From Thermoguttaceae bacterium (lineage in GTDB: Bacteria; Planctomycetota; Planctomycetia; Pirellulales; Thermoguttaceae), in the NCBI GenBank assembly GCA_017454585.1, contig JAFTCU010000220.1, forward strand, positions 1 to 11,182: a stretch of 11,182 nt of DNA, in the 5' to 3' direction. Within the stretch, counting starts at the first letter, position 1. The number at the start of each line of letters is the position of its first letter. Below, piece after piece: positions 210 to 11,182 of the stretch. The notes beneath the pieces were generated by a model that saw only the letters and a program-made list of their open reading frames with translations, was not told where the DNA came from and searched no databases. A program made the position numbers and the translations under genes.

Positions 210-2252
210 ATGAGACGAATCGTAATATTAGCCATAGCCGCATTTTTGGCGGTTTCAAACGCCCTGGCGGAGGAAGGCGTGTGGATCCGCTATCCGGGGG
301 ATTACGAAATGTGGCTCGGGAGCGACGTGCAGTCGCGCCGCATTGAGCATGGGATGCACTGCGGCGTGTTTTGGCCGGAATACTCGCATTGGCCGCAGGT
401 GACGTTCGAGAAGAATGTGAATCTCGAAAAACCGGAGCGTATCAAGGTCGAAGCTTGTGGGGATGCGTACATCCAGTCACCGGGAAATATCTTCCCCGAT
501 GCCGAAGGCTGCGCGACACTTCCTCAGGGAAACTACACCATCCAGATCCGCGTCAAGAACGCAGTCGAGCCGCCCGCGTTGAAGATCGGCGGTCCGACCG
601 TCAAGACCGACAAATCATGGCGCGTCCGATGGCGCCCCATGGAATCGTGCCAGGTGGCCACGGACGAGAACGATTGCCGGATGGCGTACAAAACCTTCGA
701 ACCGGTCAAAACGGAACTGGACGGCAAGGGTGGGCTTGTCGCCGACTTCGGCCGGGAGACGATGGGCCTTCTTGAATACGTCGTGGAAGGCAGCGGATCC
801 TTCCGCATCATCTACGCAGAAAGCGAAGAAGAGGCCAAAGCCGGCACCGAGGCGGACGTGTGGGAGGAATTCAACATTCCCGAAAGTAACAAGGAATCCA
901 GGCGCCGCACGCCTTTCGCAATGGCGCTTCGATTTGCGAGGTTCCAGGTCCTTTCGGGGGATCTGAAGATCAAGAGCGTCAAACTGATTTACGAATACCT
1001 GCCCATTCCCTATCGCGGCGCGTTCCGCTGCAACGATGAAGAGATCAACAAAATCTGGGATGTGGCGGCCTATACGCTCCATTTGACCACTCGCGAGTTC
1101 TATCTGGACGGCATCAAGCGCGACCGCTGGGTCTGGTCGGGCGACACTCGCCAAAGCGTGAACATGGCGGCGTACCTCTTCGCGGACAACCCGGTCGCAA
1201 GGCGCACGCTGACCCTGCTCGGAGGCAAAGACCCGATCGGCGCGCACGTCAACACGATCCTCGACTATACATTCTTCTGGATCATTGCCGTGGACGAGTA
1301 CTACATGTACTCCGGCGATACGGAATTCCTGAAGCAGATCTGGCCGCGTGTCAAGGCGTATGCGGACTGGAGTTTGTCGCGCACCGACAAGGACTCCTTC
1401 GCGGTCGGACGGCCGGGAGATTGGGTGTTTATCGACTGGGCGCCCGGGCCGATGAGTCTTCATGGCGGGGCCGTATCGTTCCAGCAGGTGCTCTTTGCCG
1501 AGTCGCTCCGGATCGCGGCCCAAATGGCCAGTGTGGCAGGTGACGAGGCCAAGGCCAGGGAATACGGCAAAAAAGGCGCCGAGCTGCGCGCGAAAATCAT
1601 GCCCACGTTCTGGAACGACGAGCGCAAGGCCCTGATGCACTTCAAGCCCGAAAACGGCGAACCGGCCAGGGAGCTGACCCGCTACGCCAACATTTTCGGC
1701 ATTTTCCTCGGCTACTTCGACGACGCGCAGAAAGAGGCGGTCGTCCGGAACGTGCTCGACAACCCCGACGTAATGGGCATCAAGACCCCGTACTGGCAGT
1801 ACTACGAACTGGAAAGCCTTTGCGCGATCGGACGTCAGGAAACCGTTCTCAAGCGCATCAAGGATTACTGGGGCGGAATGCTGAAACTCGGCGCGACCAG
1901 TTTCTGGGAAGAATACGATCCGAGGGTGGAAGGCGTGCAGCACTACGCGATGTACGGCCGCCCGTTCGGCAAGTCACTCTGCCATGCGTGGGGCGCGAGT
2001 CCCGTCTATCTCCTGCCAAAGTATTTCCTCGGCGTAAAACCCACGAAACCCGGATGGGAGGAGTACGAGGTGCGCCCGAATCTCGGCGGTCTTGAGTGGA
2101 TGGAGGGGACGATTCCGACTCCGTTTGGCGAAATCTGCGTCAAGGTACACGGCGACAAAATCGAGGTGCGCTCCACCGGCGGCAAAGGTACGCTTATTTA
2201 TCCAGACGGCCGCCGGGAGATCATTTTGCAGCAGACTGTTACGCATGAATGA
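210..2252 (+). CDS. Exported GH78-type alpha-L-rhamnosidase-like protein
   Basis: Likely hydrolyses terminal alpha-L-rhamnose from plant or microbial glycans outside the cytoplasm. Residues 1-20 form a signal peptide (basic MRR, hydrophobic core, cleavage after ALA). Residues about 21-265 are beta-rich, as in the N-terminal sandwich domains of this family. Residues about 270-600 are the (alpha/alpha)6 catalytic region, and 605-680 the C-terminal beta domain. Family hallmarks are visible: DGIKRDRWVWSGD with acidic residues D300, D305 and D312; TSFWEE with E567, the expected general base; and HAWGASPVYLLPKYFLG with H592. At 680 aa it is shorter than many GH78 enzymes, which often carry extra carbohydrate-binding modules. 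The start is set by AAGGAG at 196-201. It stands alone, followed by a 250-bp repeat-rich gap. Fold assignment is strong; substrate specificity is inferred, since this superfamily also contains enzymes for other sugars. Confidence 0.88.
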   Translation: MRRIVILAIAAFLAVSNALAEEGVWIRYPGDYEMWLGSDVQSRRIEHGMHCGVFWPEYSHWPQVTFEKNVNLEKPERIKVEACGDAYIQSPGNIFPDAEGCATLPQGNYTIQIRVKNAVEPPALKIGGPTVKTDKSWRVRWRPMESCQVATDENDCRMAYKTFEPVKTELDGKGGLVADFGRETMGLLEYVVEGSGSFRIIYAESEEEAKAGTEADVWEEFNIPESNKESRRRTPFAMALRFARFQVLSGDLKIKSVKLIYEYLPIPYRGAFRCNDEEINKIWDVAAYTLHLTTREFYLDGIKRDRWVWSGDTRQSVNMAAYLFADNPVARRTLTLLGGKDPIGAHVNTILDYTFFWIIAVDEYYMYSGDTEFLKQIWPRVKAYADWSLSRTDKDSFAVGRPGDWVFIDWAPGPMSLHGGAVSFQQVLFAESLRIAAQMASVAGDEAKAREYGKKGAELRAKIMPTFWNDERKALMHFKPENGEPARELTRYANIFGIFLGYFDDAQKEAVVRNVLDNPDVMGIKTPYWQYYELESLCAIGRQETVLKRIKDYWGGMLKLGATSFWEEYDPRVEGVQHYAMYGRPFGKSLCHAWGASPVYLLPKYFLGVKPTKPGWEEYEVRPNLGGLEWMEGTIPTPFGEICVKVHGDKIEVRSTGGKGTLIYPDGRREIILQQTVTHE

Positions 2253-2501: not shown

Positions 2502-3281
2502 ATGAAAAAACCGCTTGCAGTCCTTGCCCTTTTGCTTTTGGGTATCTTTTGGGTATCCTACAGTTGGGCTGACGAACCTCCTTCTAACCCTAAAGCTGGA
2601 GATCGAATCGTTCTGACTGCAGACGGGATCGAGTACACTTTCCGTTGGTGCCCGCCGGGTGAGTTTATGATGGGTGGGGATAAATACGATTTTGAAAAGC
2701 CGGTACACAAGGTAAAAATCACCAGGGGGTTCTGGCTTCTTGAGACAGAGGTCACGCAGGCGATGTGGGAGAGCGTGATGGGCGTGAATCCGAGCTTTTT
2801 CAAGGGAAAGCGGAATCCGGTCGAGCAGGCAACTTGGAACGACTGCCAGGAATTCTGCAAGGAATTAAGCCAGAAGTTAGGTCGGCAGGTCCAGCTTCCT
2901 ACAGAGGCGCAGTGGGAATACGCCTGCAGGGCGGGTGGGACGGGGGCTTACGCAGGAACTCTTGACGAGTTGGCGTGGTACAATGGTAATTCGACGAGGA
3001 CTCACGAAGTGCGTCAGAAGAAGCCGAACGCGTGGGGCTTGTATGATATTCACGGGAACGTATATGAGTGGTGTTCCGATTACTATGACGCTGATTATTA
3101 CGGCAGGTCGCCAATGAGCGATCCGGAAAACACAACCGCTTCTGCGAACCGCGTGAGCCGAGGAGGCGGCTGGTTCAGCATCGCCGAGGATTGCCGGTCG
3201 GGATACCATTACGGTTTGGATCCTGATGTCTCGGGATTCGACCTTGGCTTGCGTGTCCTTTTAGTTCCCGGTCAGGAGTAA
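2502..3281 (+). CDS. Exported SUMF1/FGE-fold protein, probably not a functional formylglycine-generating enzyme
   Basis: The 259-aa protein has a signal peptide (MKK, a hydrophobic run from about residue 5 to 18, cleavage near SWA|DEP) and then a single SUMF1 (FGE-sulfatase) domain filling the rest. Typical family motifs are present: PPGEFMMG, ETEVTQAMWESVMG, LPTEAQWEYACRAG, GNVYEWCSDYY, VSRGGGWF and GLRV near the end. In genuine aerobic FGE two cysteines five residues apart bind copper. Here the second is kept (C231), but the first position is serine (S226), so sulfatase activation is unlikely. Members like this are common in Lentisphaerae and Planctomycetes and their roles are mostly unknown. 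GAGGTGA at 2492-2498 supports the ATG. No sulfatase gene is nearby, and the gene appears monocistronic between two repeat-rich gaps. Confidence 0.88.
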   Translation: MKKPLAVLALLLLGIFWVSYSWADEPPSNPKAGDRIVLTADGIEYTFRWCPPGEFMMGGDKYDFEKPVHKVKITRGFWLLETEVTQAMWESVMGVNPSFFKGKRNPVEQATWNDCQEFCKELSQKLGRQVQLPTEAQWEYACRAGGTGAYAGTLDELAWYNGNSTRTHEVRQKKPNAWGLYDIHGNVYEWCSDYYDADYYGRSPMSDPENTTASANRVSRGGGWFSIAEDCRSGYHYGLDPDVSGFDLGLRVLLVPGQE

Positions 3282-7155: not shown

Positions 7156-7417
7156 ATGGATTCAAAGGCGTATTCGCGATGGTCACACGGTGAGGCAGTG
7201 CGAGCGTAGGGACACCAGCGCCCGGTTCACTCCACTCTCACCGGCCTATAATATGTCAAAATCTCGAACGCTCGCCCACCCTCGCAATCGTGATTCCGCG
7301 GGCCTGGGCTTTCTCCCGCAGCTTGCGGTCCTGCGTCGGTGCGTACCTATCGGTGCGATATTAAATGGGAAAAACTGAAATTTATTCTGACGTTTCAGGA
7401 ATATCTCTCTTGGCCCC
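7156..7417. other. Intergenic region without intact gene
   Basis: It contains a 17-codon ATG frame at 7156 that I do not consider coding, the PIN remnant and its repeat tail (7239-7336), and otherwise nothing recognisable. The base composition becomes AT-rich from about 7340, in contrast to the GC-rich genes on both sides. Confidence 0.5.
7239..7336 (-). pseudogene. C-terminal remnant of a PIN-domain (VapC-like) ribonuclease gene
   Basis: On the minus strand bases 7336 to 7256 encode 26 residues and a stop: TQDRKLREKAQARG, then ITIARVGERSRF. The pattern (T/N)xDxxLrxxAxxxGi is the usual last part of a PIN domain, where the D is a metal ligand. Upstream of 7336 the frame shows no PIN similarity, so most of the gene is missing. 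The bases after the stop (to 7239) match 3312-3353. Such toxins usually belong to toxin-antitoxin pairs; no antitoxin is visible. The assignment rests on one short motif. Confidence 0.55.
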
Positions 7418-7446
7418 TTGACTTTGTTCAAAATCTGTGGTATGAT
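7418..7446 (+). promoter_or_regulatory. Strong promoter-like sequence upstream of the Fic remnant
   Basis: TTGACT (7418-7423) and TATGAT (7441-7446) are 17 bp apart, each one base from consensus. It directs transcription into the half-site array and the Fic remnant. With no terminator recognised before 7912, it could also supply the flavoprotein genes. Confidence 0.7.
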
Positions 7447-7533
7447 GAGCAAATTCGATTTGTTATGCTCAAAAAATGGCAAATTTTGAGCAATCCTTTT
7501 GGACGATGCTCAATTATTTAATAATTTTGAGCA
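7446..7533 (+). promoter_or_regulatory. Array of five alternating half-sites (TGAGCA / TGCTCA), likely operator
   Basis: TGAGCA occurs at 7446, 7487 and 7528, and its reverse complement TGCTCA at 7466 and 7507. The start-to-start steps are 20, 21, 20 and 21 bp, about two helical turns each, with strictly alternating orientation. Two pairs form good inverted repeats: TGCTCAAAA (7466) with TTTTGAGCA (7484), a perfect 9-bp match, and TGCTCAA (7507) with TTGAGCA (7527). The array starts at the last base of the -10 box and covers the initial transcribed region, the place expected for a cooperative repressor. Confidence 0.75.
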
Positions 7534-7537
7534 ATAC

Positions 7538-7742
7538 ATGGAAATAACCAATATGAAAATTGTACCTTCTGATTTCATGTTAGCTCCTCTTCCTCCGAAA
7601 GTAGATCTGGAAAGCCGTCCGGTTTTGAAACGTCACTCTGAGTTTGCAGGAAGCGAAGGATAGTTCTGAAATAGAAAACATTATCACGACCCACGATGAG
7701 CTGTATCATTCAGGAAGAGACGGAAACGATTCTAACGAGTAA
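7538..7742 (+). pseudogene. Broken 5' end of a Fic-family gene
   Basis: Two short frames together resemble the N-terminal domain of Fic (AMPylator-type) proteins. Frame one, ATG 7538 to TAG 7663, contains MLAPLPPKVDLESRPVLKR, like the LPP..(D/E)(L/V)..ET..(V/I)L opening of the Fic N-terminal domain. Frame two, from 7647 to TAA 7742, contains QEAKDSSEIENIITTHDELY, the highly conserved segment with the inhibitory-helix-like SSxIExI motif. The stretch expected between them is missing and the frames differ, so an internal deletion with frameshift has occurred. The core Fic domain (HxFxDxNGR) is absent downstream. ATG 7553 is an alternative start. The upstream promoter and operator array seem intact. 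Too short to be a working enzyme. Confidence 0.8.
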
Positions 7743-7911
7743 CCGTTGACAGTTTCCCTCTTGTAACTTTATGTAATTAGGGGGGCTGGCAAGTCCATAC
7801 CGGCAAGCGGATTCAAGACGCGTGACTCTGATCAAAAGAGGAACCACTAAAATCAGGGGCTCAACCCGATTCATCATTTTATCACACGAAACTGAAACAG
7901 GAGAAACCAAC
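7743..7911. other. Gap between the Fic remnant and the flavoprotein genes
   Basis: There is no reading frame of note. TTGACA at 7746-7751 has no well-placed -10 box, although TGTAAT follows after 20 bp. A run of six Gs lies at about 7780. I see no hairpin with a T-run, so read-through from the promoter at 7418-7446 is possible. Confidence 0.4.
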
Positions 7912-10358: not shown

Positions 10359-11182
10359 CTATTCGTTCGGGTACATTTCCAGAATCGACTTTTTAAACGG
10401 TTCCCACGGCCAGTGAGAGATCCATTCGCGGTACTGGAACGTCCCTTCTTTTTCCGCCAGATCAATGACGGCTCGGGCGAGCGCGCCGGGATTTTCCGGG
10501 CCGTAGAACGGCTGGCCCGACTTTTCGATCTCCTCTTTGACCTTGGCGTAATTGCGCACCCAGAGCAGATCGTACGAAAGCAGAGCGACATCCACGCGGC
10601 GCTTGAGGACCGGATCGTCCTTGACCGCTTCACGCGCCCGGGCGACGATCTGGGCCGACTGGTTAAACGACGCCGCGTCGAGCCATTTGTCCGTGTTCGC
10701 CATGAAGCAGCGCAGATAAACGTTGGACGCCCAGGCTTTGTCGTGGATGAAGTTCAGGTACTCGAGCAGAATCGGACCGGCTTTCGGGCCGTAGTAGTTC
10801 ACGAAGAACTCGTTCCAGAGCGCCTTTGCGTCCTGATCGGGGTTCCAAAGCAGGTGCATGATGACCCAGTACCGGGCGTAAACGAAATCGCTGACGGTCG
10901 TGTCGCGGTCGCCCTGCTCGTACAGTCCGATGGTTTTATTATCGACGAAGAACCGGATGTTCGGCGCCAACGCGCGCATGTTGGGGTGCGGCTGGAGGTA
11001 GAACGAAAAGTTGGTCACGTAGTCCCAGACGAAAAGCTGCGGCGCGATTTTCGCCCAGCCCTCGATGTCGTCCTTGAGTGCCTTGTTCGACTCGTCCGTC
11101 AGCGGCTTGAGGAACGAACATTCGATCGTGCAGAGCCGGACGATCACGTTATGCCGTGGCTTGATCGTCTTCGGCGGCTTGC
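10359..11182 (-). CDS. DUF4838 domain protein, C-terminal part (5' end beyond the right edge)
   Basis: About 274 residues are visible; the frame remains open through the right edge (KPPKTIKPRHNVIVRLC...), so the apparent GTG start at 11147 is internal. The segments VIVRLCTIECSFLKPL, DIEGWAKIAPQLFVWDYVTN, ALAPNIRFFVDNKTIGLYEQGD, YARYWVIMHLLWNPDQD and EFFVNYYGPKAGPILLEYL are typical of DUF4838, a TIM-barrel-like domain related to alpha-glucuronidase and hexosaminidase families and found mostly in polysaccharide-degrading PVC and Bacteroidetes species. Glycoside hydrolase activity is likely but not shown; any N-terminal signal or catalytic acid pair upstream cannot be seen. The C-terminus, after about 100 mostly helical residues, ends at EMYPNE. 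The gene is GC-rich like the rhamnosidase gene and is followed by a hairpin. Confidence 0.85.
   Translation of the reverse strand, partial: KPPKTIKPRHNVIVRLCTIECSFLKPLTDESNKALKDDIEGWAKIAPQLFVWDYVTNFSFYLQPHPNMRALAPNIRFFVDNKTIGLYEQGDRDTTVSDFVYARYWVIMHLLWNPDQDAKALWNEFFVNYYGPKAGPILLEYLNFIHDKAWASNVYLRCFMANTDKWLDAASFNQSAQIVARAREAVKDDPVLKRRVDVALLSYDLLWVRNYAKVKEEIEKSGQPFYGPENPGALARAVIDLAEKEGTFQYREWISHWPWEPFKKSILEMYPNE

Follow-up and report, generated by a model that had tools for sequence, protein, structure and literature searches.

How do SoFic and related Fic toxins stay harmless until phage infection? The question is raised here by a ladder of short half-sites in the DNA of a Thermoguttaceae bacterium, where it runs from a promoter to the remains of a fic gene. 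A first-pass annotation of this 11,182-bp stretch (hereafter, the window) took the ladder for an operator of a cooperatively binding protein, with autoregulation by Fic as a guess. From sequence comparisons across several phyla, we consider it probable that the array is what remains of the control region of a SoFic-type Fic gene: an operator to which Fic would itself have bound, repressing its own promoter. An operator form that is shared among Fic genes, with a word that changes from gene to gene, offers a testable answer to the question: self-binding through the C-terminal winged helix.

The array is as first described. TGAGCA starts at 7446, 7487, and 7528 and TGCTCA at 7466 and 7507, in steps of 20, 21, 20, and 21 bp; the strong promoter, the 9-bp perfect inverted repeat (arms 7466-7474 and 7484-7492), and the end of the array 4 bp before an ATG are likewise confirmed (Table 1). 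Outside the array, each of the two words is present once in the window (at 344 and 5097, respectively). That such an arrangement is unlikely by chance also holds up, as TGAGCA-N13-15-TGCTCA has two matches in the window versus none in 200 dinucleotide shuffles. A degenerate sixth half-site, TGTTCA (one mismatch), lies at 7425, 21 bp ahead of 7446, so that the array reaches into the spacer between the −35 and −10 boxes. Read in this way, the array consists of three 27-bp TG..CA dyads with a period of 41 bp, two of which have arms agreeing at 7 or more of 8 positions. Alternate 26-bp dyads pass too (7446-7471, arms 7/8; 7487-7512, arms 6/8), because TGAGCA itself starts with TG and ends with CA; we chose the 27-bp reading because 27 bp is the length found in the Fic family (see below).

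Table 1. Features of the window (positions counted from its first letter); L176 is the nearest intact relative of the window Fic
Feature	Position	Strand	Detail and basis
Sigma-70-like promoter	7418..7446	+	−35 TTGACT 7418-7423, 17-bp spacer, −10 TATGAT 7441-7446; read from sequence
Dyad 1, 27 bp	7425..7451	+	left TGTTCA (degenerate), right TGAGCA touches −10 box; arms 5/8
Dyad 2, 27 bp	7466..7492	+	arms 8/8, 9-bp perfect
Dyad 3, 27 bp	7507..7533	+	arms 7/8; end 4 bp ahead of ATG (7538)
Decayed SoFic-type fic, piece 1	7538..7663	+	41-codon open frame, N-terminus; tblastn, query L176 Fic
Decayed SoFic-type fic, piece 2	7638..7715	+	Fic_N region, different frame after internal loss; tblastn, 92% over 26 aa
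Alpha-L-rhamnosidase-like protein	210-2252		
FGE-sulfatase domain protein	2502-3281		
DUF4838 protein	10359-11147		

Directly 3' of the array lie two pieces of a SoFic-type fic gene, and the gene itself is broken. Searches by tblastn with the intact L176 Fic protein placed both pieces (together, E 2.6e-12), the aligned part of the first being 7568-7633 (64% over 22 aa). Residues 35-61 of the L176 protein are absent between the two pieces, and the same query found no fic piece beyond the second, leaving N-terminal pieces only and a window that holds no working Fic active site; fic has therefore decayed here, and autoregulation in cis is no longer possible. A 41-residue protein (P0001) on another, 80-kb contig is 90% identical to the frame at 7538-7663 and shares its C-terminal end, so the truncated form is not confined to the window sequence. 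Among the 20 listed of 21 plasmid records that matched positions 7400-7760, the match was restricted to the fic piece (query 232-309), and a search of phages with the window region gave no match.

We scanned one genome per species (84,980 species) for three half-sites at the window spacing. Twenty stretches matched, two of which are multi-dyad arrays; the remaining 18 have three exact sites each, one of them (L013) with a fourth at one mismatch. The first array, in a Thermoguttaceae MAG (L012, 2529-2801), comprises 14 half-sites, or 7 dyads, in seven near-identical 41-bp units. A Fic C-terminal stub lies 51 bp past it (2853-2906; 72% over 18 aa, E 4.8e-4), so this array also adjoins a lost Fic gene; here the putative operator has been multiplied as a tandem repeat where the gene is gone except for the stub. 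The second array, in a Planctomycetia MAG (L015, 7084-7151), has four half-sites forming a two-dyad TGAGCA ladder, and no Fic piece was found adjoining it. A promoter of the form TTGACA-17-TATAAT precedes it. Its genome also carries the L176 Fic gene, the only Fic_N domain match there, so that the array is possibly a target in trans. Upstream of L176 lies just one 26-bp TGTTCA..TGAGCA dyad, and the four-site statistic described below detects no ladder there (z −1.3).

A looser pattern had matches in 3 of 392 Planctomycetota genomes: a multi-site array in G001, the genome of L012, and single matches in G025 and G032. A different Fic gene of G001 (L177) has, directly past its stop, five near-identical 40-bp units with the half-site TTTAATAAGG, starting at oriented position 2538, and the 700 bp downstream hold no frame of more than 93 codons. 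A plasmid search with the L012 array gave no match. Viral contigs contained no match to the three-site pattern and at least 120 stretches with the two-site pattern; among the matches listed, none examined reached the ladder rule.

To place the array in its family, Fic loci were collected from the phyla of planctomycete, verrucomicrobial, and Bacteroidales centre genomes (L012, L017, and L007) and oriented with the gene; 30 of these, taken from among more matches listed, came from Bacteroidota. A ladder statistic scored four alternating half-sites in 220-bp upstream segments, with periods of 32 to 50 allowed. Upstream of the close Fic subfamily, z exceeded 4 in 30 of 72 loci (29 of 71 without the window), versus 6 of 674 far segments of the same loci, and the best period was 40 to 42 in 29 of the 30 upstream ladders. 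One of the six far segments is the L177 ladder, which scored as far because the L177 match spans the N-terminal domain only. Scores above 4 were also obtained in 7 of 87 3' flanks and in 4 of 19 more distant Fic loci (L177 and L191-L208; periods 40, 41, 41, and 50), which were kept out of the close counts; a Fibrobacter Fic locus (L178) enters no count.

A strict dyad rule, which requires no period, demands TG..CA with 8-bp arms agreeing at 7 or more positions and allows lengths of 22 to 33. In 19.8 kb (220 bp upstream of each of 90 Fic loci), it found 37 dyads of 27 bp, 10 of 28 bp, and 11 spread over the ten other lengths. The 27/28-bp share is thus 47 of 58 upstream versus 5 of 25 in far DNA (89 kb, with 20 dyads of other lengths). 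As the rule was devised on these same 90 loci, 16 held-out loci served as an independent check: 15 chosen among 60 listed of 319 plasmid records (clinical genera excluded) and 1 of 5 phage records. All seven of their upstream dyads, in 6 of the 16 loci, are 27 or 28 bp long. In the held-out control (27.5 kb, from 60 bp past the start to the locus end), 10 of 21 dyads have these lengths, and 8 of those 10 lie directly past the Fic gene in L268, L271, L279, and L281, each of which has no strict upstream dyad.

The window array agrees with this family pattern of 27/28-bp TG..CA dyads at a 40- to 42-bp period. SoFic-type Fic genes of several phyla have ladders of this construction at their flanks, and the half-site words differ among them. 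The first-pass annotation had staked its reading on conservation upstream of homologous genes and had proposed a search for the 88-bp pattern; recurrence at homologous Fic genes is what we find, and the geometry is general, but the TGAGCA word is not. The ladder form would offer a sequence-based route to Fic target sites.

Between neighbouring dyads (23 pairs, 20 loci), half-sites agree at 0.78 versus 0.56 for spacers. Half-sites agree more than spacers in 17 of the 23 pairs, and in the window the figures are 0.92 and 0.45. These values bear on two explanations that do without a DNA-binding protein. One takes the repeats for leader RNA hairpins, serving as a terminator, a processing site, or a repeat RNA resembling a type III antitoxin: each dyad could fold, and the array sits between a strong promoter and a toxin-like gene, as ToxI repeats do. 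Dyad 1 spans the promoter, however, and would not be transcribed whole, no Rfam match reached gathering score anywhere in the window, and the dyad length of 27/28 bp and the period of 40 to 42 match turns of DNA. Furthermore, half-sites of different dyads agree more than hairpin logic requires; for a hairpin it is enough that its own arms pair, and they need not recur in the next hairpin, so this agreement favours DNA over RNA. We regard hairpins as highly improbable and set them aside. Less credible still, to the point of being negligible, is chance or simple tandem duplication without function. Tandem expansion is clear in L012 and L177, and spacers are as alike as half-sites in 6 of the 23 pairs; yet the predominance of half-site over spacer agreement in the window and in most pairs, together with the association of ladders with Fic genes, led us to set this explanation aside as well.

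The SoFic defence model recognises the L176 Fic (E 4e-115), which carries a SoFic-like_C domain and matches solved SoFic structures. Its predicted model (mean pLDDT 87) has a C-terminal winged helix with a recognition helix at 327-339 and a wing at 344-355; the segment compared among loci below is this helix ahead of the wing. For the protein alignment, 7 of the 71 close loci were excluded for in-frame stops or short frames. By eye, helices of the SRxTAxKYL type accompany TGTAAAGA or TGTATAGA, and RKTAAKYL accompanies TGGGTAAA or TGTACCC. Among 26 loci with an RQ(T/A)(A/G) helix, TGTCGC occurs upstream in 6 of 6 with SR(Y/H)L versus 0 of 20 others (Fisher 4e-6, uncorrected for kinship and for a link spotted by eye before counting). 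Each of the six has at least two TGTCGC words upstream, and three also have TGTCGA. TGTCGA is present upstream or downstream in 11 of 11 KRQTA loci; L209, L228, and L229 have neither word.

The half-site word thus covaries with the Fic winged helix. With the rest of the protein taken into account, word and helix have a partial correlation of 0.27, a value that none of 999 permutations attains (43 loci). The recognition helix predicts the word at 0.471, another stretch of the same domain at 0.488, and a Fic_N stretch at 0.455; since other stretches predict the word about as well, some of the correlation is due to ancestry. Outside this comparison, KRQTASSYL is the helix of two E. coli fic genes, upstream of which TGTCGA and TGTTTAAA-type words follow one another over a long stretch up to the ATG; both fail the strict dyad rule (best arms 6/8). 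With a word that changes in a shared form, these loci provide natural material for working out a winged-helix recognition code; one candidate pair is the Arg of SR(Y/H)L and the final C of TGTCGC.

The covariation lends weight to the first-pass guess of an operator for autoregulation, but the fic gene next to this particular array is broken. That circumstance, and the L015 array next to which we found no Fic piece at all, would suit a separate regulator encoded elsewhere, such as a defence-island repressor, for which Fic is merely the target. Such a regulator explains neither a word that varies among loci in step with the Fic winged helix nor ladders at either end of the Fic gene, and we judge it improbable.

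Self-binding by Fic, the reading that we prefer, would work as follows. A SoFic-type Fic is a protein AMPylase of a known anti-phage family, and each subunit of its dimer has a winged helix at the C-terminus. Within a 27/28-bp dyad, the pair of winged helices of a single dimer would read the pair of half-sites, each with TG outward, which, about two helical turns (21 bp) apart, would lie on one face of the DNA. The rise of B-DNA is 3.4 Å per bp, so that 21 bp corresponds to 71 Å. Tandem dyads every 40 to 42 bp would then seat several Fic dimers side by side, presumably with cooperative binding. With the array running from promoter to start codon, Fic would close its own promoter, and a toxic defence enzyme would be kept low. 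Later, the fic gene of the window lost most of its body, and the ladder has outlived it.

The closest precedent is CccR, a Yersinia pseudotuberculosis Fic protein with a C-terminal HTH, described as an autorepressor whose dimer binds inverted repeats near its own −35/−10 boxes (PMC9755527); this supports the principle of Fic autorepression. In the CccR structure, as reported, the HTH helices are 70.2 Å apart (PMC9755527). This is close to the 71 Å that separates half-sites 21 bp apart. CccR is a secreted effector with 29% identity to SoFic at 45% coverage, and its footprint covers one pair of sites, AGATAATCAT-N26-ATGATAATCT (PMC9755527). Both operators overlap the −35/−10 region of a fic promoter (in the window, 7425-7451 versus 7418-7446). 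They differ in that CccR has two 10-bp half-sites 26 bp apart, whereas the window half-sites alternate at 20/21 bp, and in that no multi-dyad ladder appears in the CccR text available; sequence and spacing are also unlike those of the window array. By analogy, the window array may work like the CccR operator, although it is a different operator form.

The other known systems match in part. SoFic of Shewanella and E. coli, the family on whose models the intact relative of the window remnant scores, is a dimeric anti-phage Fic in which the C-terminal domain controls toxicity (PMC12249575). The main text of that paper contains none of the terms "HTH," "DNA-binding," and "upstream," and no operator is described in the text available. 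Just downstream of E. coli H397 Sofic, a 47-residue frame, EcAS1, is reported as an antitoxin, for which soluble protein was not obtained (PMC12249575); ladders, too, can sit directly past fic stops. CbFic2 of Coxiella burnetii is a Fic protein with a DNA-binding HTH whose AMPylation is described as DNA-binding induced; its binding was studied on random DNA sequences, and the text available names no specific operator (PMC10628234). AbiE-type toxin-antitoxin operators, so far as their descriptions go, combine multiple inverted repeats with negative autoregulation, like the ladder, but belong to a different protein family. Neither the ladder nor the word-helix covariation was found described in the literature covered, bioRxiv preprints and most subscription papers being outside its scope. 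The first-pass remark that no operator of this form had been described stands for the ladder, but a Fic protein that represses its own promoter by way of a C-terminal HTH is already on record (CccR, PMC9755527); new, relative to the sources available, are the ladder form and the covariation of word and helix.

Where the ladders lie with respect to the gene was counted at 87 loci (71 close and 16 held out), with start codons assigned by a simple rule. Strict 27/28-bp dyads are only 5' in 40 loci, only 3' in 15, on both sides in 2, and absent in 30. Of 58 upstream dyads, 54 are no more than 200 bp from the start, and of 29 downstream dyads, 26 are no more than 200 bp from the stop; six dyads fall inside genes. 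The 3' dyads of L213 and L233 (the two loci with both) and of L264 (one of the 15 with 3' dyads only) have words unlike those of their own 5' ladders and may be due to chance. Some ladders are visible by eye but fail the strict rule (e.g., L185, L190, and L269). The first-pass annotation had asked whether the pattern always precedes the gene; it does not, as at 15 of the 87 loci the strict dyads are confined to the DNA just past the stop. These 3'-only loci count against the operator reading, as do the 30 loci with no strict dyad on either side, the two E. coli genes that fail the same rule, the 26-bp dyad and low ladder score of L176, the L015 array with no Fic piece, and the different spacing of CccR.

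The gene following fic was checked in ten loci with 3' sites. It encodes HsdS in L225, HsdR in L262, a type III Res in L220, a helicase in L226, YhcG in L184, a tRNA synthetase in L235, and a convergent ABC protein in L261; no family was assigned in L182, L217, and L212. The gene ahead of Fic, examined in six of the ten, encodes HsdM in L182 and L184, a type III methylase in L220, and HsdS in L262, with no family assigned in L225 and L226; an HsdM-type methylase lies ahead of Fic in L176 as well. A restriction-modification gene adjoins fic in 5 of the 10 loci. L271 and L279 have a convergent gene past fic, for which a promoter role of the ladder does not fit. The 3' ladders are not accounted for by promoter repression, which suggests room for a role of DNA in enzyme control.

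Such a role is the core of an alternative that we think unlikely, though the least so of the rivals, in which the ladder would serve chiefly as a DNA platform acting in cis rather than as a promoter operator. On either side of the gene, Fic dimers would polymerise on this platform, and the AMPylase would be held off or switched on by the state of the DNA. The nearly exclusive choice of one side or the other, near start or stop, and the 3' ladders that face convergent genes are in keeping with a platform, as are the DNA-binding-induced AMPylation of CbFic2, another Fic-HTH protein (PMC10628234), and the multiplication of the L012 and L177 arrays in G001 to 7 and 5 near-identical units. Ladders are commoner 5' than 3', however, and for some 3' ladders the target could be the gene that follows fic in a restriction operon (HsdS in L225, HsdR in L262, and Res in L220). 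A bolder form, to which we give somewhat less credence again, would have SoFic-type enzymes assembled on a dedicated, position-independent ladder by their own gene, at once operator and switch of an AMPylase-dimer filament that is silent on DNA and released when phage disturbs the DNA; the lineage-specific pair of word and helix would then be a natural recognition code. The 3' ladders do suggest a role beyond promoter repression, next to the self-repression that we favour for the window array.

A different kind of repeat was seen at L211, which the 3' ladder test flagged with a period of 32: at the end of the fic gene and in its 3' flank (about 1390-1500), TGTCATAAAAT-type repeats recur in one orientation every 16 to 17 bp.
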